A stretch of DNA of 26,114 nt from the IMG/VR virus record IMGVR_UViG_3300012936_000144, positions 1-26,114 of that record, one strand, 5' to 3'. This document shows, piece after piece, positions 17,557 to 26,114 of this stretch. Under the pieces are notes generated by a model, which searched no databases, was not told the origin of the DNA, and was given only the letters and a program-made list of their open reading frames with translations. A program made the translations under genes and the position numbers. The first letter of the stretch is position 1; every line of letters starts with the position of its first letter. The stretch comes from a virus.

Positions 17557-18249
17557 TCAAAAGAAGAGTGAAACTTCTAAATTATTCTTTTTCCATATTC
17601 TTCTTATTCTAGAAAGTGATGAACTTAATTCAGAACTATTTAAACCTGATATTTCTCTAAGATATACGAAAACCGCTCTTTTATTAAAAAAATCTAGCTC
17701 TTCAACGTTTTTAAATATGTGTATTATAGCATGCATGCACTTTTTATCATTACTTTTACTTAATAAACAAACTAATTTTTCAAGTTCTTTCACTATAGTA
17801 CCATTTATTTGTGAAGCATGCATGATATCTTCTGGCGAACCTTTATAGTCTATATCAATTAAAGTTAAACACTCTCTTTCATGCATAGTCATTTCGTCAG
17901 ACTCATGAATACTAACTGAACGTCTGGAATTTTTATTAATTCTTCTCGTATGAATTGTTAGCCAGTTTTTTGCAACAACATTAAAGTAAGAAAAAGCTTT
18001 CTTGCCTTTACTTGCATCCCACTTTCTAATAGTTTCAAATAAAAAAGTAATACAATCATTCTTAAGGTGATTCATATCCTCATTTGAAGCATTGTATTTA
18101 TAGACTGATATTAGTTTTGTTACTAGTTCATCAAAAGCAGGCATTATATACTCAACGTATATTTTTTCCTTTTCAGACATGCTTTCTGCTTCTTGATATT
18201 CTTTTATTTTATCTTGCGTTTGATTGTTGAAATAATAGTTTTTACTCAT
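17557..18249 (-). CDS. gp55: Late-transcription RNA polymerase sigma factor, gp55-like (230 aa)
   Basis: A divergent sigma factor that would redirect host RNA polymerase to phage late promoters. Residues of about 60-112 match a sigma region 2 pattern: LKNDCITFLFETIRKWD, then KGKKAFSYFNVVAKNWL and a basic stretch THTRRINKNSRR-like up to RRSVSIHE. This is the arrangement I recall in gp55-type factors of T4-like phages. The C-terminal part (about 192-222, VFVYLREISGLNSSELSSSL and RIRRIWKKN) could form a helix-turn-helix. The last residues, EVSLFF, resemble a sliding-clamp-binding peptide. The ATG at 18247-18249 overlaps the membrane-protein gene by 8 bases; only a purine-rich AGAGAG precedes it. 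Confidence 0.82.
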   Translation of the reverse strand: MSKNYYFNNQTQDKIKEYQEAESMSEKEKIYVEYIMPAFDELVTKLISVYKYNASNEDMNHLKNDCITFLFETIRKWDASKGKKAFSYFNVVAKNWLTIHTRRINKNSRRSVSIHESDEMTMHERECLTLIDIDYKGSPEDIMHASQINGTIVKELEKLVCLLSKSNDKKCMHAIIHIFKNVEELDFFNKRAVFVYLREISGLNSSELSSSLSRIRRIWKKNNLEVSLFF

Positions 18250-18523
18250 CTCTCTCTTCTTCTATTGATGTAGATAGGCTGCTAGCAATTAAAAGAAGAG
18301 AATCTCTTGAATTTTTTATTTCATCAATAACGATCTTTACTTCCTTGCTATTATAAAAAATAGGTATATTTAAAATTTCTGATATCTTAAAGTAACTTTC
18401 ATCGATTTTTTCCAAAGAGTCTTCTAAAGCATCTTTAACTCTTATTATTATTAGTGCAAACTTAAAGCAATAAAACAGAGATAATAAAAGCAATATTGAA
18501 AGTATTACTATTGACCAAATCAT
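18242..18523 (-). CDS. Small single-span membrane protein (93 aa)
   Basis: Residues 2 to about 27 (IWSIVILSILLLLSLFYCF and following) form one hydrophobic membrane span with no cleavage site. The remaining 65 residues are charged and helical: DALEDSLEKIDESYFKISEI, then NIPIFYNSKEVKIVIDEIK and a hydrophobic helix SRDSLLLIASSL. I recall small conserved proteins of this layout in cyanophages and other T4-like marine phages near structural genes, function unknown. The start overlaps the glycosyltransferase stop as ATGA, and the stop lies inside the start of the sigma gene, so all three are likely made from one transcript. A signal anchor facing the cytoplasm is the simplest topology. Confidence 0.8.
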   Translation of the reverse strand: MIWSIVILSILLLLSLFYCFKFALIIIRVKDALEDSLEKIDESYFKISEILNIPIFYNSKEVKIVIDEIKNSRDSLLLIASSLSTSIEEERDE

Positions 18524-19707
18524 ATATTATTTTCTTTCATAAAGTTATTATAGTTTTCTTTTATAACTTCAAAGTTAAAGTTTTCTTTTATTTTATCAGC
18601 TAATATTCTTGCATCTTTTGCTTTTTTACCATAGTCGTCAAAAGCTTTTTTAAGAGTTAGTCTTAGATGACCGTTTGTAACATTAGCCCATTTAGATCCT
18701 TCCATAAATATTTTATTATCAACCCTAGAAGCATCTATTTCTTGCAATTTATAATTAAGCCTTGTAAAGTTTCCTAGCTTTAAAAAGTCTAAGTGACCAC
18801 TCCAGTTTGTAGCTATAATTGGAAGACCAAGTCTAGCAGACTCGATTAAAGGCAAACCAAAACCTTCACCTCTTGATGCTGAAAGGTAGTAACTTACTTT
18901 TTCATGTGTAAATAGAGTATATAATTGTTTCTCTGTAAGATCTCCGTGCATAATATGAATTTTAGGAAAATCTTTTTTACCTATTTCTTTAACTACACTT
19001 TGTATAATCGACAATGTTTTATTTCTATCGATTTTAGTATTTCTTCCTGTATTAACCTTTAGTATTAAGCCTACGTCTTTATTGTCTTTATAAGCATTAG
19101 TAAATGATTTAATAGTATTGAAAATATTTTTTCTATCAGAAAACTCGTTAAAGCCAGTTATTTGTCCTACTAAAAGAAAGTTTTTTGTTGTAGGAATATT
19201 ATTTAAAACTTCATTTATATAATTGTCTTTTTCAATATCTTTGTCAAATAATTCCGGGTAAGTTTCATGAATTACATTAACTTTTTCTTTAGGCAAACCC
19301 GTATTTACCAACACGCTTTTTGTAAATTCTGATGGCGTTATTACTGCGTCCATTCTGTCACAACATTCAACCCAAGCTGGATTACAAGTATTAGTTTCTA
19401 CAGCAGCTGTTATTCCAATATTTTTCTTTGCAAGAAAAGGATTCCATTCATTGGGCAGCTGAATCTGAAATGATATGTCAAAACTGTTATCTCTATTTGT
19501 GTTTTCATCAATTGATCTATTCATGATTTCATTAATAACTGGATCTGTTTTATCAATATTCCAACTACAGCGACCCCATGGGGTAACAATACATTTAACA
19601 TCAAAGTCACTACGAGACATTAGCCAGCTAAAGACTTGTCTTGAGTGTATTCCGTATCCGCTTTTAGTTAAAAGCGGGCCTTTTATTATAACGCTTTTAT
19701 TGCTCAT
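18520..19707 (-). CDS. GT4-type glycosyltransferase (395 aa)
   Basis: A GT-B-fold retaining glycosyltransferase. The N-terminal domain opens with IIKGPLLTKSGYGIHSRQV, the glycine-containing acceptor-side loop of this class. The C-terminal nucleotide-sugar domain has LLVGQITGFNEFSDRKN, IHIMHGDL and the ExxxxxxxE motif E281-GFGLPLI-E289 followed by GLPIIATNWSGHLDFL. I place the start at 19707, where ATG overlaps the upstream stop as TAATG and GGAG lies 8 bases before it. A longer frame reaching 19782 would overlap the upstream gene by 76 bases and lacks that support. Donor and acceptor cannot be told from the sequence. It is coupled to the second GT4 gene upstream and to the membrane protein downstream. 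Confidence 0.9.
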   Translation of the reverse strand: MSNKSVIIKGPLLTKSGYGIHSRQVFSWLMSRSDFDVKCIVTPWGRCSWNIDKTDPVINEIMNRSIDENTNRDNSFDISFQIQLPNEWNPFLAKKNIGITAAVETNTCNPAWVECCDRMDAVITPSEFTKSVLVNTGLPKEKVNVIHETYPELFDKDIEKDNYINEVLNNIPTTKNFLLVGQITGFNEFSDRKNIFNTIKSFTNAYKDNKDVGLILKVNTGRNTKIDRNKTLSIIQSVVKEIGKKDFPKIHIMHGDLTEKQLYTLFTHEKVSYYLSASRGEGFGLPLIESARLGLPIIATNWSGHLDFLKLGNFTRLNYKLQEIDASRVDNKIFMEGSKWANVTNGHLRLTLKKAFDDYGKKAKDARILADKIKENFNFEVIKENYNNFMKENNI

Positions 19708-20951
19708 TATAGCGTCTCCATATGAACTGTATTTTGTTTTGACTTCCACTTTTCGATTGTTTCTTCTAGAGACTCGTGCCACATATCAATTGTATCTTGA
19801 TATCTAAAAGCCTTTAAGACATATTCTCTTGCTCTTCTACCAACTTCTTTTCTTTTTTCTTCGCCCATCTGATAAAGACTCATGATGGCTTTAGCTACAG
19901 TTGATTGAGAAACATAGTCTTCATAGATATACGGAACTTGTTGTGATCCAACAAGAGATCTATATTCTACTGGAAGAGCAACTCCATTAATAGAACCGTC
20001 TAGATAATTGACGACTTGTCTAGTCATACCTCCAGTTTTTAAAGCAATAATTGGAACTTCTGCGTTCATTGCCTCTAAAGTACCTAAACCAAAGCCTTCA
20101 GCAAGACTAATATTAATATAACAATCAGAGATGTTATAAATGTTATTCATTTCATCAAAAGAAATTCTTTCTGTAGAAAATATAATATTGTCAGTTATGT
20201 TTTGCTGACTAGCAACCTCGTACAAGTTTTGACCTTCGCTATCAAGTGGGTCTGTGTGAAGCAATAAAGATGCATTCCTATGACCAAATTTTTCTTCCAA
20301 CATTTCTAAAAAGATCCTAAATGATAATAATAAATCTCCCGGCCTTTTTCTTCTAGCATTTCTATTTACCCATGAAACAATAAAATGATCTTGTTTGCTA
20401 GGAGGAAGCATTTCTTTTTTTAGAGAATTGATTTTAACTTGTGACAAAGGATAATATAAATCTTCTGGAATAGAATGTGGAATAAATCTAGTTTTATCTT
20501 TAAAGTTTTCTTTACACATATTATATGTCATATAAGAATGACAGTTAATGGCATCTGTTGCCTCATAAAAATGATCATTAAATCTAGGCGTTGGATAATT
20601 GTCCCAAACATGCCACCAAAGCATAGGACAAACTTGATGAATTTCATCTTCCATTTCATAGAGCCATGTAAAGAATCTCGGGTCTGTAAATATTAGAAGA
20701 GCATCAGGTTGTTCTGTTGCTAGTAAAACTCTAATTAATTCTGGACTACCAAAACCATCAATAGGTTTAATAATAAAGTCATCATTAATAATAGCAAGCC
20801 TATAATCACTATGCTTAACTGCAGCCCCTAATTGTCTAAATGACCAACAACCTTTTTTAATTAGACCTTCAATTAAATGCCTTGTTTGAGTTCCAACACC
20901 ACTAGTTGATAAAGCATGGTCTGATAATACGAGTATTTTCTTTTTCTTCAT
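19707..20951 (-). CDS. GT4-type glycosyltransferase (414 aa)
   Basis: A second GT-B enzyme. The N-terminus KILVLSDHALSTSGVGTQTR carries the Rossmann strand and the glycine-rich loop typical of GT4. Middle-domain features are WWHVWDNYPTPRF and the strand FIVSWVNRNARRKRPGDLL that begins the nucleotide-sugar domain. The catalytic ExxxxxxxE motif is E285-GFGLGTL-E293, followed by VPIIALKTGGM. Start and stop both form TAATG junctions (20951 with the nuclease gene and 19707 with the next transferase), so production of all three is probably coupled. It is too different from its neighbour to be a recent duplicate. The sugar and acceptor are unknown. Confidence 0.9.
   Translation of the reverse strand: MKKKKILVLSDHALSTSGVGTQTRHLIEGLIKKGCWSFRQLGAAVKHSDYRLAIINDDFIIKPIDGFGSPELIRVLLATEQPDALLIFTDPRFFTWLYEMEDEIHQVCPMLWWHVWDNYPTPRFNDHFYEATDAINCHSYMTYNMCKENFKDKTRFIPHSIPEDLYYPLSQVKINSLKKEMLPPSKQDHFIVSWVNRNARRKRPGDLLLSFRIFLEMLEEKFGHRNASLLLHTDPLDSEGQNLYEVASQQNITDNIIFSTERISFDEMNNIYNISDCYINISLAEGFGLGTLEAMNAEVPIIALKTGGMTRQVVNYLDGSINGVALPVEYRSLVGSQQVPYIYEDYVSQSTVAKAIMSLYQMGEEKRKEVGRRAREYVLKAFRYQDTIDMWHESLEETIEKWKSKQNTVHMETL
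19716..19719 (-). promoter_or_regulatory. Ribosome site fixing the GT4 start at 19707
   Basis: GGAG on the minus strand, 8 bases before the ATG of the TAATG junction. It lies within the 3' end of the upstream glycosyltransferase gene and supports the shorter 395-residue product. Confidence 0.7.
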
Positions 20952-21787
20952 TATTTACAGTTCTCCGTATTATAAAATTCGCAAAATTTACAGCTGCTTC
21001 TGTTTTTTAGTACAAGACTTGATTTTTGACTTTTTATCATGCTTCTAACTAACTTGTTACTTTTTTCCAGAGTTTTTGGGCCGCTTGCAACTTTAATAAG
21101 CTGACATACTCTACTTTTATTTTTAACTTTTTTTAACAAAACAAAGCCGCATAAAACGTCAGACAACTTAATATTATTTTTAAGTGCCCAATAGTTTTTG
21201 TAAAGGACAACCTGAGCATGGGTTAGAAAGTCTCTTTTCTTATCTGTACTCCAGCCTCTTGGCGAAGATGTTTTCCAATCAATAATCCAATATTTGTATT
21301 TCCCATCAGTTTTTTGTGGTATTTTAATTATACAATCAATATATCCTTTAAACTTAGTTCCTTCAACATTTTCAATTGACTCATATAACTTTTCTTCTGC
21401 AGAAACAATTTCCCACCCGGGAAAAGTTTCTTCTAAAAAAGAAGGAAGCGCCAAAATGCTAGTCTCTGCCCATTCGATCCAGTCAGATCTTTTTGAATGT
21501 TTATATTTCCAGCCTTGCAACTCTGCTTTCATTGTCTGCATGGCAATGTAGTCTTCAGAATCAAATCCATGCTCTTCCCAAGCCACCTTTATTTTACTAG
21601 CTGCTTCTTCTAACTTTAATTCTCTAGTTTTAAGATAATGCTCGCAAGCATCGTGAACAATAGTGCCATAATGTAAGTGGGGAGACTCTTCAAAAGTTTG
21701 CAATTTATCTATATAAATAAGTTTATGTCGCCATGGACATTCTTTCCACTGACGAACTTCAGAATATGATACATGCTCTTTTAACAT
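20951..21787 (-). CDS. PD-(D/E)XK nuclease, RecB/Cas4-type with Fe-S cysteines (278 aa)
   Basis: Motifs of the RecB-like nuclease family appear in order: YSEVRQWKECPWRHKLIY (8-25), GTIVHD with His45, GYIDCI with Asp151, IIDWKTS with Asp170 and Lys172, and QVVLY (192-196, the QxxxY motif). Four cysteines, Cys17 near the start and Cys266, Cys269 and Cys277 at the end, match the single-plus-triple arrangement that binds a 4Fe-4S cluster in Cas4 and AddB. The family cuts DNA as a 5'-end exonuclease or in recombination complexes. Phages use relatives for replication, recombination or host DNA degradation. No cas genes or array are nearby. The ATG is at 21785-21787; no good Shine-Dalgarno site precedes it. 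Its stop overlaps the glycosyltransferase start. Confidence 0.9.
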   Translation of the reverse strand: MLKEHVSYSEVRQWKECPWRHKLIYIDKLQTFEESPHLHYGTIVHDACEHYLKTRELKLEEAASKIKVAWEEHGFDSEDYIAMQTMKAELQGWKYKHSKRSDWIEWAETSILALPSFLEETFPGWEIVSAEEKLYESIENVEGTKFKGYIDCIIKIPQKTDGKYKYWIIDWKTSSPRGWSTDKKRDFLTHAQVVLYKNYWALKNNIKLSDVLCGFVLLKKVKNKSRVCQLIKVASGPKTLEKSNKLVRSMIKSQKSSLVLKNRSSCKFCEFYNTENCK

Positions 21788-21832
21788 TACAATATTATAC
21801 TTTCATTTTTTATATTATAACGCAGCATTATA
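21788..21832 (-). promoter_or_regulatory. Possible promoter before the nuclease gene
   Basis: This 45-base gap, with a few bases of the preceding gene, is almost pure A+T and holds three TATAAT hexamers on the minus strand (one at about 21827-21832 region, one near 21814-21819 and one near 21793-21798). No good -35 element lies 16-18 bases upstream of any of them, so a host sigma70 promoter is doubtful; a phage late promoter needing only a -10-like box is possible. In such A+T-rich sequence the boxes may be chance. No ribosome site is visible in the gap. Confidence 0.3.
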
Positions 21833-22525
21833 TCATTTTATATATAATTTATTTAATAGATATTCATAAAATTCTTTTTTTCTATCAATAGAGCATTTTT
21901 CAAAAAGATCTGACTGGTTTTTGTTATCTTCTATTATTACTGCATTAACAGGTAAAAACTTGCAGTTAAATTTAAGAATATACTTACAAAAAAAAGTTAG
22001 CCACAAGTCTTCTATGTACCAGTATCTTGGGTTTATTAAGTTAAAAATATTATCGTTTGAAAATACTTCTGACTCAATTAACATCATTCCCGTACCACAA
22101 TAGTCAGCTTCTTCATTTAAGCTTAATATTCTTTTACGATCCCAGTAATCTTTACCATTAATTTTCCACGACCACCAAGATTTAATTGTATTTTTTTCAA
22201 TATTATCATAACAAATCTGAATTGTTTTAGAGTCAAAGTCTATATCGTCATCGATAAATAATATGCTTTTATATTTATCTTTTATTTCTTTAGCATAATA
22301 AAACCTACCAAATCCACCACAATTTTTATATGAACTTTTTATTGAAATATTTAGATATGGAAATTTTTTGCATATATTGATTACATCAGACTCAGAATTA
22401 AAATTATTATTCCATATAAAAATATCAAAGTTTTTATTTAATTGAGCTGATAGCATTTGAAGTGTTTTTTCAAGTCTATCTTCTATCCTATTCCATACAC
22501 AAGTAATAATTGCTATTCTATTCAT
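21833..22525 (-). CDS. GT2-family glycosyltransferase (230 aa)
   Basis: A GT-A-fold transferase of the GT2 type. It begins IAIITCVWNRIEDRLEKTLQ, the first strand and helix of the fold, followed by FDIFIWNNNF. The metal-binding DxD region is FIDDDIDF (Asp92 and Asp94 in the window 90-97). NCGGFGRFYYAK at about 68-79 is the substrate-loop equivalent. The second half (YWYIEDLWLTFFCKY) carries an ED pair that often serves as the catalytic base region in GT2. The start overlaps the upstream gene by 8 bases and the preceding region holds AGAGGAA, a usable ribosome site. The gene is among the most AT-rich in the window. Acceptor unknown. Confidence 0.87.
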   Translation of the reverse strand: MNRIAIITCVWNRIEDRLEKTLQMLSAQLNKNFDIFIWNNNFNSESDVINICKKFPYLNISIKSSYKNCGGFGRFYYAKEIKDKYKSILFIDDDIDFDSKTIQICYDNIEKNTIKSWWSWKINGKDYWDRKRILSLNEEADYCGTGMMLIESEVFSNDNIFNLINPRYWYIEDLWLTFFCKYILKFNCKFLPVNAVIIEDNKNQSDLFEKCSIDRKKEFYEYLLNKLYIK

Positions 22526-23264
22526 TACAAATTCCTCTTTGTCTTATGGTAGTAACAGCATTATGAGCTTTTATTCCTAGCGATCCGCCCCTAGGTTTAG
22601 AAGGATTACCTGTATGATGATAAACATAAAGTGGCTCATTTAAAAATACTACGTCTTTAAGAAGGTTACCTTTATTTCTAATGTTTTCAAGAATTGGTAA
22701 AACATATGCCTGATCGCATCCCATTTCAAACCACTTGCCGCTTTTATCTAAAAAGTTTTTATAACTTATTTCTTTAAATTTTTTTGCTTTAAATGTTGAA
22801 ATATGTGAAGTTATCCATTGACTTTCATATGGCTCCCAGTCTTTATCAGGTATTTCCTTACATATGCCAAGATGCCCATTATGAGAATAAACAAAATTTG
22901 AATATAGATAGTCACATTTAAATTTATCGTAAGAATTATATATTTTTTCTAAAACAAATTCATTTAAAAGCCAGTCGTCACCATCAACAATAACAATTAT
23001 GTCTTCATCATTAACTTTATCATGAATTAGGTCATACAGATTTTTAATTTTATACTTTTTTTCTTTATTTTTAATTAGATCAATATAGTCTATAGAATTA
23101 TCATTAATTGTTTTCTCTGCAATATTATAACAACCATCTGTACTTAAATCATCAATAAAATAGTGTGTTTTAGGCTTTAAAGTTTGATTAAAAACTGAAA
23201 GTATATTGTTTTTTACAAAAATATTACCGTTATAATTGCAAGAGACAACTACAATATTTTCCAT
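22518..23264 (-). CDS. GT2-family glycosyltransferase (248 aa)
   Basis: A further GT-A transferase. The N-terminus VVVSCNYNGNIFVKNNILSV is the typical first strand and helix, and FIDDLSTDG (36-44) is the usual D-D-x-S-x-D-G nucleotide-binding motif. The DxD motif is VDGDDW (93-98), preceded by EDIIVI. Near residues 174-190 WFEMGCDQAYVLPIL contains an acidic pair in the position of the GT2 catalytic base. The start forms a TAATG junction with the upstream GT2 gene. The C-terminal tail is basic (KPRGGSLGIKAHN). The nearest functional class, from fold alone, is transfer of a sugar from a nucleotide donor with inversion; specificity cannot be read. Confidence 0.9.
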   Translation of the reverse strand: MENIVVVSCNYNGNIFVKNNILSVFNQTLKPKTHYFIDDLSTDGCYNIAEKTINDNSIDYIDLIKNKEKKYKIKNLYDLIHDKVNDEDIIVIVDGDDWLLNEFVLEKIYNSYDKFKCDYLYSNFVYSHNGHLGICKEIPDKDWEPYESQWITSHISTFKAKKFKEISYKNFLDKSGKWFEMGCDQAYVLPILENIRNKGNLLKDVVFLNEPLYVYHHTGNPSKPRGGSLGIKAHNAVTTIRQRGICNE

Positions 23265-24241
23265 TATAGTTTAATCCAGCTTGTTTTTTTTGACCAATCT
23301 ATTTTCTTATGAAATATCCATCCTCCCATTTCTGACTCTAATCTTTGAGCTAGCTCTTTTATCTCATCATCAGATACATCAGACCAAGACTTATTAAACA
23401 TCATGTTATTTTCTGGAGTATCTTCTATTTTTTTATTGTATAATGAACACCAAAATCTAGACCAGAAGTCTCTATAGTTTTTTATTTTTCTTTCTAGGTT
23501 ATACCAACTGTAATGATAAACTACAGGAAAGTTCTTAGATATACTTTCTAAAACATTTTTATAGATGTTTAAAAACTGATCATTACCAGTACATGCTGCC
23601 TGTCTAATGTTTTCTATTTCCGAAGAATAAAAAGTTGCTGAAGGTAAAATTTCGTATGTTTCTGAATGTATGTAGTTGCATCCGTCAGTTCCTTCTGCAG
23701 CGTAGAGCCTTCCTTCTTCATCAAATCTTCTTAGCTGATTAGGAATACCATGTGTTATATAAGACTTGTTTCTGCTTAGTCGCCATTTCCATGGATTAAC
23801 ATCTACTCTAACTTTACCCTTATTTCCCCAAAACTCTATCACAGGTAAGCAAAGAATATCTACTTCTTCTGGCAGCCTATTGACTATACTTGTAATTTTT
23901 TCATAGTCTTCTTCTTTAACTACTTCATCTACGTCACTTTGCCAGCACCATTCTCCTTTGCATAATCTTCTAGCTCTAGCTTTTTGTTTTCCGTCTGACT
24001 CGTATGCAAATCTTTCATTTTCCCAATCAATTTCATGACGATTTATAGATAATTTATCTTCAATATCAGACCACAATAATAGCTCTTCCCATGTTCCATC
24101 ATCAGATCCACCATCTAAAACTATAACTTCATCACAGAAACCTAACATAGACTCAATAGAATCTTTCCAAGGATATTCTGACTTAATACAGTTATATGTT
24201 GTAGTATAACCTGATATCTTAAGTTTGTAGTTACTCTTCAT
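23264..24241 (-). CDS. GT2-family glycosyltransferase (325 aa)
   Basis: A GT-A transferase resembling the GT2 group that includes lipopolysaccharide core enzymes of the WaaE/KdtX type. YTTTYNCIKSEYPWKDSIES (12-31) is the first strand and helix, EVIVLDGGSDDGTWE (38-52) the donor-binding motif, and WQSDVDEVV (100-108) the DxD motif with Asp103 and Asp105. ARARRLCKGEW before it fits the usual 'R..g...a.gdW' stretch. The C-terminal third contains HYSWYNLERKIKNYRDFWSR and is larger than in the minimal fold. The ATG at 24239-24241 lies 11 bases inside the upstream gene, so both are probably co-translated. A surface-glycan role is suggested by the family, not shown. Confidence 0.9.
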   Translation of the reverse strand: MKSNYKLKISGYTTTYNCIKSEYPWKDSIESMLGFCDEVIVLDGGSDDGTWEELLLWSDIEDKLSINRHEIDWENERFAYESDGKQKARARRLCKGEWCWQSDVDEVVKEEDYEKITSIVNRLPEEVDILCLPVIEFWGNKGKVRVDVNPWKWRLSRNKSYITHGIPNQLRRFDEEGRLYAAEGTDGCNYIHSETYEILPSATFYSSEIENIRQAACTGNDQFLNIYKNVLESISKNFPVVYHYSWYNLERKIKNYRDFWSRFWCSLYNKKIEDTPENNMMFNKSWSDVSDDEIKELAQRLESEMGGWIFHKKIDWSKKTSWIKL

Positions 24242-25091
24242 TATCTAATATCCTATTCCAGAAATAGTATGGTCTATCTGATAGGTATTTTATAATTTTA
24301 TTTTTATCTTTTTTAAACCAGACTTCTTCTCTATGCTGAACGTATTCGTTATCTATTATTTTACAGTCTAATAGTTTAGCTTCTATTACCCACCTAGGAC
24401 AAGTATCAAAACCGTTAGGGAGATAAACTATTCCTCTATGCTTAGCTAAAAGTTTTAGTGCATCTTTATAAGGCAAGTCCCAGACAACTTTAGCATCTAT
24501 ATTTCTTTCTTCACAGTACTCTCTACTACGATCAAAGCCTTTTACCCAAGAATTACTACCTAGAAGTAATATTTCACTACACGAATTTTTATTCTGTAAG
24601 TCTTCAGATAAATCTTTAATGGTTTGTATGTCTTTTTGTGAAAAGATTGAAGAAAGTATAAAATTGTTATTATTTTTAAGGTCTGGAAACTTATTGTGAT
24701 AAAACTTCATTTGACCTTCAGACATCCAGTTAAGTGTTTTAGCACCTTTGTAAAACACCTCTATCAATTTACCTATAGGCGTTTCTTCGCACTTGCATTC
24801 TCCATTATGAGCTGGATGTTGTGGCAGTCTGTGAATACAGTATTTATAATCATATTCTATAATATGATAGTTAGTTAAATTTTGTGATATAAAGAAGATT
24901 AATTCTGGGTTTAATTGACTAAAATTTGTAAAAATCCAGACTTTATCCCTATTATTATTAAGCATATCAATTGTTACTAATCTACTCTTTACTTCTATAT
25001 ACACTTCTTCACAATAACTTAATAAACTATCTGTTGTTAATTCTGCTCCACCGCCATACTCATTAGCAAAAAAGTCTGATACTATGAACAC
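24231..25091 (-). CDS. GT-B-type glycosyltransferase of a phage-associated family (286 aa)
   Basis: The start is a GTG at 25089-25091, supported by AAGAGG 6 bases upstream; no ATG gives a complete N-terminus. The protein opens IVSDFFANEYGGGAELTTDS, the glycine loop of GT-B enzymes. The second half has EILLLGSNSWVKGFDRSREY, IVYLPNGFDTCPRWVIEAKL and NEYVQHREEVWF, which match a glycosyltransferase family I recall from marine phages. Glu237 would be the second Glu of the ExxxxxxxE motif while the first is absent or replaced. Cys85, His92, His95, Cys99 and Cys101 lie close together and could form a metal site. At 286 residues it is shorter than usual GT4 enzymes. It is the first gene after the terminator and begins the glycosyltransferase group. 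Confidence 0.8.
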   Translation of the reverse strand: MFIVSDFFANEYGGGAELTTDSLLSYCEEVYIEVKSRLVTIDMLNNNRDKVWIFTNFSQLNPELIFFISQNLTNYHIIEYDYKYCIHRLPQHPAHNGECKCEETPIGKLIEVFYKGAKTLNWMSEGQMKFYHNKFPDLKNNNNFILSSIFSQKDIQTIKDLSEDLQNKNSCSEILLLGSNSWVKGFDRSREYCEERNIDAKVVWDLPYKDALKLLAKHRGIVYLPNGFDTCPRWVIEAKLLDCKIIDNEYVQHREEVWFKKDKNKIIKYLSDRPYYFWNRILDNEE

Positions 25092-25103: not shown

Positions 25104-25114
25104 TTCAATAAAAA

Positions 25115-25142
25115 AGTATAAAAAAACGCCTTCCTTTGTAAA
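25115..25142 (-). promoter_or_regulatory. Possible sigma70-like promoter overlapping the terminator
   Basis: On the minus strand TTTACA (25137-25142) and TATACT (25115-25120) are separated by 16 bases, each differing from consensus by one base. Transcription would start near 25108 and give a short leader with the AAGAGG site before the GTG at 25091. The -35 box lies in the loop and arm of the terminator hairpin and the -10 box in its T-run. A+T richness makes chance matches likely. Confidence 0.3.
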
Positions 25143-25153
25143 AAGAAAGACGT
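25120..25153 (-). terminator. Intrinsic terminator after the fibre gene
   Basis: The minus strand forms a 12-base-pair stem (arms 25142-25153 and 25126-25137) with a four-base loop (25138-25141) and three G-U pairs, followed by a run of T residues (25120-25125). It lies about 30 bases after the stop of the fibre gene and before the first glycosyltransferase, so it ends the fibre transcript and separates the two units, at least in part. Confidence 0.85.
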
Positions 25154-25182
25154 CTTGTGACTTAAAGTCTAAACTTTAATTA

Positions 25183-26114
25183 TTAACCAAATGTGCAGCC
25201 ATTATTTCCAATGCAATACCATTTTGAGTCAATGTATTGAAGAGTGCATGCTTGACCTTGCGCTGATAGTGTTATTGTACTTCCGGACCAAGCTGGATTT
25301 GTAACTGTAACAACCATGTTTCCACCACCATGAGTCTCCATAGCAAGAACCTTAATCTGACCTTCAGTACCTGCAGCAAGAGTTGATGTTTGGCCTCCAG
25401 CTTCAGTCTGATAATATGTTGCATGTGTAGTTAAAGGAGTAGCAACACCACTACCTCCATCTTCAGCTGAGTCGTTAAGTAAAATTTGACCTATTTCTAG
25501 CGTAGAAGCAGCGCCTGTACTAAAGTCAAATTCTTCAGAGGAAGGATCATCTAAACTTTCATATAGCTTGAATCTTGAATCAGATCTGTCCCATATTAGT
25601 CCTAGATTTTCGTCATTAGAAAGTGTTGAGTATACACCTGTGTCTACGAGAGCTCCAACACCTTCTGCACCTATTTGAATTAGTGTATCTACAATTTCTA
25701 AATTTGTACCATCACTTTCTAAAACACCCGCAACTGTTAGCTTGCCAGAAATGGTTGTATCACCATTTGCTGCAACAACAAACTTATTTGAACCGCCAGC
25801 AACATCTCTGAGACGGAATGTTGCGCCACCGTTTGTGTCAACGATTACGGAACCATTAAGATTTGAAGTACTAGCAACTGTAAGTGTGCCATCAATATCT
25901 ACGTTGTCTGGTAATCCAATTGTAATTGTATCGCCAGAAACTGATGTTTCAATTTCACCTGCAGTACCACTAATTGTAAATGTGTCGCCCAAGTCCAGAT
26001 CAACATTATCACCTGAGTCAGCAGCCAAAGTGATATGATCATTTAAAATCATTGAGTTTACAATGGCATCAGCTTGAATTGTTAAAGCACCACCAGCAGC
26101 TACCGCAGCATCAC
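25183..26114 (-). CDS. Fibre-like or surface virion protein, N-terminus beyond window
   Basis: The frame is open from the window edge to the stop at 25183, giving 309 visible residues. An internal Met at 26052 has no ribosome site and the residues before it (AAVAAGGALTIQADAIVNSM) fit the same protein, so it is not the start. The sequence is Gly-, Thr- and Ser-rich with repeated short strands (DTFTISGTAGEIETSVSGDT, TLTVASTSNLNGSVIV, DTTISGKLTVAGVL), a pattern common in marine phage fibre and surface proteins. The C-terminus (ACTLQYIDSKWYCIGNNGCT) has three Cys and resembles a terminal beta-domain in such proteins. The gene is clearly less AT-rich than the rest of the window. Cell-binding function is inferred. 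Confidence 0.82.
   Translation of the reverse strand, partial: DAAVAAGGALTIQADAIVNSMILNDHITLAADSGDNVDLDLGDTFTISGTAGEIETSVSGDTITIGLPDNVDIDGTLTVASTSNLNGSVIVDTNGGATFRLRDVAGGSNKFVVAANGDTTISGKLTVAGVLESDGTNLEIVDTLIQIGAEGVGALVDTGVYSTLSNDENLGLIWDRSDSRFKLYESLDDPSSEEFDFSTGAASTLEIGQILLNDSAEDGGSGVATPLTTHATYYQTEAGGQTSTLAAGTEGQIKVLAMETHGGGNMVVTVTNPAWSGSTITLSAQGQACTLQYIDSKWYCIGNNGCTFG

Follow-up and report, generated by a model that had tools for sequence, protein, structure and literature searches.

A minimal, putative glycan-assembly locus between tail-fibre and baseplate genes of uncultured T4-like phages

The window analysed here (26,114 nt of IMGVR_UViG_3300012936_000144, positions 1 to 26,114 of that record) carries six ORFs of glycosyltransferase (GT) type, which together form a minimal version of a phage-encoded glycan locus that lies, in uncultured T4-like phages, between tail-fibre and baseplate genes. 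What would a phage build with such a set? From the genes as we read them, we would give an even chance to virion proteins, probably the fibres, being glycosylated in the cytoplasm by a pathway that the phage encodes. More tentatively, the wider picture might be one of phages, in a widespread and uncultured lineage, that supply their virions with serotype-like glycans of their own: a conserved core from a GT4 pair and from a bifunctional GT-B/GT-A enzyme, and outer sugars (in some phages nonulosonic acids as well) determined by an exchangeable cassette next to the tail-fibre genes. In part, the evidence supports what the initial annotation had proposed, a multi-sugar glycan pathway in a structural or late gene region, with virion glycosylation as a leading reading.

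Layout of the locus

All six claimed ORFs are present on the minus strand, between 18520 and 25091 (Table 1). Their proposed division into two GT4 enzymes, three GT2 enzymes and one short GT-B enzyme stands for the GT4 pair, for GT_D and for the motifs (those of DxD type are found in GT_C, GT_D and GT_E, and E-x7-E in GT_A and GT_B), with GT_E and GT_C borderline in Pfam. The list had left out a nuclease gene within the set, and it had counted six independent enzymes, whereas GT_A and GT_B are core to the whole phage group, GT_F and GT_E together correspond to a single bifunctional enzyme and GT_C stands alone as an orphan. By ORF coordinates, the genes are spaced as follows: GT_F and GT_E overlap by 11 nt, GT_E and GT_D by 1 nt and GT_D and GT_C by 8 nt; a gap of 45 nt separates GT_C from the nuclease; and overlaps of 1 nt (nuclease and GT_B), 1 nt (GT_B and GT_A) and 4 nt (GT_A and the next ORF) follow.

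Table 1. Features of the locus and its surroundings in the window
Feature	Positions	Strand	Basis
gp55-like late sigma factor, conserved-block member	17557..18249	-	phrog_234; synteny
Small one-TM protein, conserved-block member	18242..18523	-	hydrophobic segment; synteny
GT_A, second core GT4, 395 aa	18520..19707	-	PF00534, E 2.3e-8
GT_B, core GT4	19707..20951	-	PF00534, E 8.5e-13; E-x7-E
PD-(D/E)XK nuclease (RecB/Cas4-type), adjoins GT_B	20951..21787	-	PF12705, E 2.4e-20
GT_C, orphan GT2-like protein	21833..22525	-	PF00535, E 2.5e-4, below cut-off
GT_D, GT2 adjoining bifunctional GT	22518..23264	-	PF00535, E 8e-10
GT_E, GT-A/GT2-like half of bifunctional GT, DxDE	23264..24241	-	PF13704; fused homologues
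GT_F, GT-B-fold half of bifunctional GT	24231..25091	-	fused homologues, D-x7-E
Terminator-like hairpin with U tract, between fibre gene and GT_F	25123..25156	-	15-pair stem
Fibre-like structural protein, C-terminal part, runs off window end	25183..26112	-	ORF open at end

Gene order and motifs are kept across many contigs, and the GT set is therefore not a matter of chance. The set consists of two conserved modules, one of F-E with GT_D and one of the nuclease with GT_B and GT_A, and a variable island lies between them. Against the closest relative, dN/dS in the window is 0.13-0.16 for GT_A, GT_B and GT_F. Defence-system models run against the locus gave a single weak match, to GT_D (E 0.006).

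The bifunctional enzyme and the conserved block

GT_F and GT_E are separate in the window and fused, in most relatives, as one protein of ~640 aa; GT_F is 38-44% identical to the N-terminal half, and GT_E 51-56% identical to the C-terminal half, of fused ORFs of 569-640 aa. Because the two are also split in the relatives G026 (41-nt gap) and G005 (11-nt gap), a sequencing error in the window is unlikely. At least 248 viral stretches encode the fused enzyme, and no F-E homologue was found in the phage records searched. GT_F has no Pfam match and GT_E reaches PF13704 with 27.5 bits, exactly at the cut-off; the D-x7-E motif of the one half and the DxDE motif of the other are each present in 19 of 19 fused homologues. 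In an AF2 model of a fused homologue, the GT_F region forms a GT-B domain (mean pLDDT 90), and residues 12-301, as two Rossmann domains, match GT-B enzymes with Z up to 19.9 (272 residues, 3.5 A); for the GT_E half, the nearest structure by Foldseek is SunS 7msp (E 2e-10). Structural searches with the fused model gave mostly single-domain matches, so we draw no substrate from them.

In all 17 contigs that had been picked up through F-E alone, GT_B follows F-E on the same strand at a distance of 8-26 kb downstream. The nuclease, GT_B and GT_A form an ordered block kept in ~80 related viral contigs or loci. GT_A holds its place in 80 of 80 loci and the nuclease in 76 of 80 (it is also found in phages immuto and Mel-JY01), and the late sigma gene and the small one-TM protein are syntenic in 78 and 63 loci, the hydrophobic segment of the latter being present in 61 of 63 homologues. 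In the late sigma family alignment, 11 of 20 members match phrog_234, a family annotated as late sigma transcription factor, with E 2.8e-7 at best. Both GT4 enzymes score above the cut-off of 26.4 bits for Pfam Glycos_transf_1 (PF00534), GT_B with 48.6 bits and GT_A with 34.2. No enzyme of the locus is better conserved than GT_B (~60% identity); its relatives are encoded by 229 stretches (viral contigs), its E-x7-E is kept in 40 of 40 homologues, its AF2 model has a GT-B fold (pLDDT 86.9) and, among proteins of solved structure, its best relative by sequence is the chlorovirus GT B736L (E 6e-11). In GT_A, the first Glu of this motif is found in 27 of 27 homologues and the second in 24, with Asp in the other three. 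The start of GT_A is most likely the ATG at 19707, because it overlaps the GT_B stop as TAATG and because homologues have a median length of 389 aa; the same two points disfavour the GTG at 19782.

The variable island and its counterparts

Between the modules, the window holds GT_D and GT_C only, that is, GTs without sugar-making genes. A GT2 cluster similar to GT_D (23 proteins, 21 genomes) occurs in most relatives, and a GT2 gene usually lies 3' of F-E in them. GT_C, at 21.5 bits for PF00535 against a cut-off of 23.3, had no relatives among phage records or viral contigs. In relatives, the island runs to 2-36 genes, many of them for nucleotide sugars: epimerases, UDP-sugar dehydrogenase, NeuB-type synthase, cytidylyltransferase, UDP-galactopyranose mutase and RfbH-type aminotransferase. 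Epimerase matches in the IMG/VR records fall inside islands in 47 of 52 cases, and the islands differ greatly in what they carry (502 proteins in 220 clusters). Since relatives hold nucleotide-sugar genes at the very place where the window has a minimal version, the earlier idea that the glycan is built from host nucleotide sugars is not supported as a rule.

The locus would be a different version of phage sugar clusters that are already known, and it resembles the virion glycosylation of chloroviruses. A close phage case is that of the Prochlorococcus phage P-SSM2 (PSSM2_257-271), likewise a one-strand cluster of epimerases and soluble GTs, although this likeness (epimerases and GTs without membrane proteins) is a feature of the relatives, the window itself showing GTs only. 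P-SSM2 differs in that GT_A, GT_B and F-E are absent from its first 232 kb by profile search, with no protein match to GT_D or GT_E, and its cluster sits between small ORFs and hli genes rather than directly by a fibre gene or the gp25/late-sigma block. Flavobacterium phage immuto shares the order nuclease-GT_B-GT_A, followed by GT2, WecE-type aminotransferase, epimerase and acetyltransferase-type genes, but its sugar genes lie 3' of GT_A, by GroEL and lysis genes and not by fibres; LR756508, too, has sugar genes near GT_B. By analogy, conserved ends with nucleotide-sugar and GT genes that can be exchanged between them may be likened to bacterial O-antigen and capsule loci, from which the phage locus differs by its late or structural context and its lack of Wzx, Wzy or any polytopic protein.

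In chloroviruses, the capsid protein is glycosylated by virus-encoded enzymes, and multidomain GTs make a conserved core (PMC7826918). The likeness to PBCV-1 A111/114R and NY2A B736L lies in such virus-encoded multidomain GTs and in a conserved core with variable sugars (PMC7826918, PMC9614988); the differences are that chloroviruses infect eukaryotic algae, that their capsid N-glycan has been shown chemically whereas that of the phage locus is predicted from its genes, and that no fused F-E homologue was identified among them. A search of one literature collection for phage virion glycosylation found nothing useful.

What the glycan would be attached to

In the pathway that we favour, soluble GTs would act in the host cytoplasm and build a short oligosaccharide, its core conserved (the GT_A/GT_B and F-E steps) and its outer part varying with the island. 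The chain would be assembled directly on late-made virion proteins, of which the tail fibres encoded next door are the most plausible. The phage of the window would draw its sugars from the host or make them with genes that lie beyond the 26 kb, and exchange of the island would alter the glycan "serotype" of the particle. If this is true, virion glycosylation would belong to the basic equipment of a large environmental phage group instead of being an accessory oddity, a modular locus could diversify particle surfaces, hundreds of uncultured phages would be tied to a testable biochemical pathway, and phage "LPS" clusters (e.g., that of P-SSM2) would be worth re-examining as possible virion-glycan pathways.

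The main rival, which we think somewhat unlikely, is that the GTs and sugar enzymes change the LPS or capsule of the infected cell, for example excluding competing phages. Peripheral soluble GTs can extend an LPS core at the inner leaflet, and at the inner membrane they can also act on intermediates of the host that are lipid-linked or belong to the LPS core, so that absent Wzx and Wzy are no proof of a protein acceptor. Absent they appear to be: a hydrophobicity test that flags E. coli Wzx and Wzy marks not one of 471 island proteins as polytopic, and thus no flippase or polymerase was found, nor any initiating membrane transferase among the same proteins, and the flippase family PF01943 is missing from all 25 long records (controls positive in 13 of 14). 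This counts against a changed cell surface, as do the setting of the genes in a fibre/baseplate/late-sigma region and the retention of fused F-E and of GT_A/GT_B across very different phages, hence presumably hosts. By the same test, membrane proteins are likewise missing from the P-SSM2 cluster, which is usually interpreted as serving LPS modification. An LPS-type reading has been proposed for that cluster, with epimerases and GTs among its genes, and the kinds of genes in our loci match those of clusters so read (epimerases, GTs, nucleotidyltransferases, carbamoyltransferase) (PMC7824862).

Could the acceptor be DNA, as had also been suggested? T4 is the precedent for phage GTs with DNA as their target (PMC9614988), and a GT4 pair that glycosylates modified phage bases would have nuclease and late sigma neighbours reflecting DNA metabolism; the pair's most consistent neighbour is indeed the PD-(D/E)XK nuclease, and phage immuto carries 7-deazaguanine DNA-modification genes. 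Searches for the enzymes of base modification made this target less likely. Of 25 IMG/VR records, 22 lack the thymidylate-synthase/hydroxymethylase family, records of 257 kb and 237 kb among them (records may be fragments), the DpdA-type family (phrog_19058) was found only in immuto, and a TET/JBP search, run without a positive control, gave no match. PF01702 (TGT family), tried as a DpdA detector, failed to pick up the DpdA annotated in immuto; its negative was therefore discarded and phrog_19058 used in its place. Nearly all loci, moreover, add further GTs and sugar-nucleotide genes, which is atypical of base glucosylation, and we hold DNA to be an improbable acceptor. It is very doubtful, too, that the GTs are loose cargo, morons of a recombination hotspot with no common pathway: orphan GT_C and the 220 clusters of the island speak for this, but in the core GTs the catalytic motifs are conserved, dN/dS is low, gene order and orientation are fixed, and F and E occur as a fused enzyme.

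The fibres, as acceptors, are suggested by position. The fibre-like ORF of the window, directly 5' of the GT genes, matches phrog_18186 (tail, baseplate wedge subunit; E 8e-6), and the gene 5' of the fused GT in relatives usually encodes a large fibre-like protein, sometimes PhoH. About a dozen loci have no large same-strand gene directly 5' of F-E, and the GT4 pair is not next to annotated fibre genes in immuto, Mel-JY01 and RM378; the adjacency could stem from late expression or a recombination hotspot. The T4-type late promoter (TATAAATA) was not enriched over shuffles upstream of F-E. The region of the hairpin between the fibre gene and GT_F (25105-25185) folds with an MFE of -20.3 kcal/mol (z -4.0), a value that none of 200 shuffles reached.

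A bifunctional transferase and its link to GT_B

The window is a virus record of 26 kb from IMG/VR. Two half-enzymes that are encoded separately in it, GT_F (a GT-B glycosyltransferase half) and GT_E (a GT-A/GT2-like half), are covered in most relatives by one frame of ~610-670 aa, the fused F-E enzyme. It is encoded in at least 248 stretches of viral contigs, and no match was found among 50,697 phage records. The fused enzyme also occurs in two metagenome-assembled bacterial contigs (Halobacteriovorax, 27.7 kb, and Methylococcaceae TMED69, 305.8 kb; L126, L127); judging by the large fibre-type gene and the GT2 gene on either side of it, both look like phage sequence and are probably misbinned. 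The window and two relatives have the halves as separate genes, and since the junctions differ (11-nt overlap, 41-nt gap, 11-nt gap), we take the split to be real. Adjacency still ties the separate genes together.

In a predicted model of a fused homologue (mean pLDDT 90), the F half forms a GT-B domain that scores Z 19.9 against sucrose-phosphate synthase and similarly against HepE and BshA, and the nearest Foldseek match of the modelled E half is the peptide S-glycosyltransferase SunS (E 2e-10). The substrate of F-E cannot be read from such a predicted fold.

How firmly is this enzyme tied to GT_B, one of two GT4 enzymes at the locus? Because our first set of loci was found through GT_B, the F-E genes in it came to light by way of GT_B; the reverse search, with 17 long records picked by F-E alone, is the independent check. 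All 17 carry GT_B downstream in the same orientation, at distances of 8.1-26.2 kb (median 15.9 kb). The first set has F-E in 21 of its 27 long records; in the remaining six, by coordinates, the contig stops short of the expected F-E position. Upstream of F-E, a hairpin-like element (TTGTATAA...TTGTACAA, then an A run) recurs, for example in L128, L130 and L131, and TTGTACA occurs in 16 of 68 such regions vs. 1.2 expected from shuffles.

Conserved flank and variable island

Gene order in the window
Feature	Position	Strand	Remark
fibre end	25183-26112	-	first in minus-strand order
terminator-like hairpin	25123-25156	-	between fibre end and GT_F
GT_F	24231-25091	-	
GT_E	23264-24241	-	
GT_D	22518-23264	-	
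GT_C	21833-22525	-	
PD-(D/E)XK nuclease	20951-21787	-	
GT_B	19707-20951	-	
GT_A	18520-19707	-	
one-TM protein	18242-18523	-	between GT_A and late sigma factor
gp55-like late sigma factor	17557-18249	-	
baseplate-type genes incl. gp25 homologue		-	after late sigma factor in minus-strand order

GT_B relatives are encoded by 229 viral stretches, the best 80 of which are ~57-80% identical to it. Loci found with GT_B keep the order nuclease, GT_B, GT_A, small TM protein, late sigma factor, orf13, orf12, gp25, orf9, orf8, and median identity falls from 60% in GT_B to 40% in the late sigma factor and 35% in the gp25 homologue. The nuclease-GT_B-GT_A trio is also present, at 26-40% identity, in the cultured phages immuto (Flavobacterium) and Mel-JY01 (Microcystis), and RM378 has GT_B with a GT_A-like neighbour.

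In nearly all relatives, and in immuto and Mel-JY01, the nuclease separates the sugar island from GT_B; an additional ORF of 287-289 aa lies between nuclease and GT_B in three relatives (G008, G012, G027; L094, L097, L108). The small protein, with a single N-terminal TM segment, keeps its place in 63 loci. The Mel-JY01 GT_B homologue (L084:12001-13492) is annotated as two adjoining CDSs, its N- and C-terminal parts, and RM378 ORF14 (L085:10449-11726) resembles a divergent GT_A in which, read by eye, the second catalytic Glu is apparently Asn.

Between the F-E/GT_D and nuclease-GT_B-GT_A modules, relatives carry an island of 2-36 genes, of which the window is the minimal version. Representative families in the islands of relatives are NDP-sugar epimerase/dehydratase, UDP-glucose/GDP-mannose dehydrogenase, UDP-galactopyranose mutase, PseF/KdsB-like cytidylyltransferase, NeuB with SAF domain, DegT/RfbH aminotransferase, HldE-type kinase and nucleotidyltransferase, NodU-like carbamoyltransferase and AroB-related lyase. 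By our own count, 47 of 52 epimerase matches in IMG/VR records lie within islands. NeuB is found in 11 of 27 records, inside islands by coordinates, and in LR756508 it lies ~16 kb from GT_B; its relatives are scarce in phage records (3 of 50,697), one being MH319754.1 87464-88264 from the single-cell-derived marine virus AG-345-L05.

Candidate acceptors

Directly 5' of F-E, in 52 non-redundant loci picked for a same-strand ORF of ≥150 aa at that position (about a dozen further loci have none), the gene is PhoH in seven; the others are large and often rich in Ser/Thr/Asn. Those matching PHROGs belong mainly to tail-fibre or tail families, and some bear Peptidase_S74, collagen, PA14 or GLEYA domains. 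Because these neighbours are mostly large and fibre-like, fibre proteins are, from position, the most plausible acceptor.

ALTERNATIVES Modification of the host surface by the locus is the main rival reading, though a less probable one. In a simple hydropathy test that gave nine segments for E. coli Wzx and six for Wzy, and flagged 61 of 63 small TM protein homologues, none of 471 island proteins (25 records) had two or more hydrophobic segments, and the Wzx family PF01943 was absent from 25 long records (control genomes, 13 of 14 positive). The missing membrane machinery speaks against a lipid-linked polysaccharide being assembled and exported; it is compatible with soluble transferases acting on host intermediates. 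DNA glycosylation is less likely, for among records that may in part be fragments, a hydroxymethylase-type family is absent from 22 of 25 (IMG/VR) and DpdA from all except immuto. The annotated QueC, QueD, QueE, FolE, QueF-like and DpdA genes of immuto (L087:18607-37015) suggest 7-deazaguanine in its DNA.

Known viral systems

The closest known phage cluster, that of P-SSM2, is unlike the present locus in not lying directly beside fibres, and the first 232 kb of P-SSM2 hold none of the core transferases. Usually called LPS biosynthesis, it likewise shows no TM protein in the hydropathy test (L213:429-12501), and that reading could be re-examined. What is new here is the architecture of conserved flank and variable island together with the fused GT-B/GT-A enzyme, neither of which is in the phage records searched. 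Of systems known to work, that of the chloroviruses comes closest: there, transferases encoded by the virus, multidomain ones among them, assemble a capsid-protein glycan whose core is conserved and whose decoration varies (PMC7826918, PMC9614988); the best solved sequence relative of GT_B is the chlorovirus transferase B736L.
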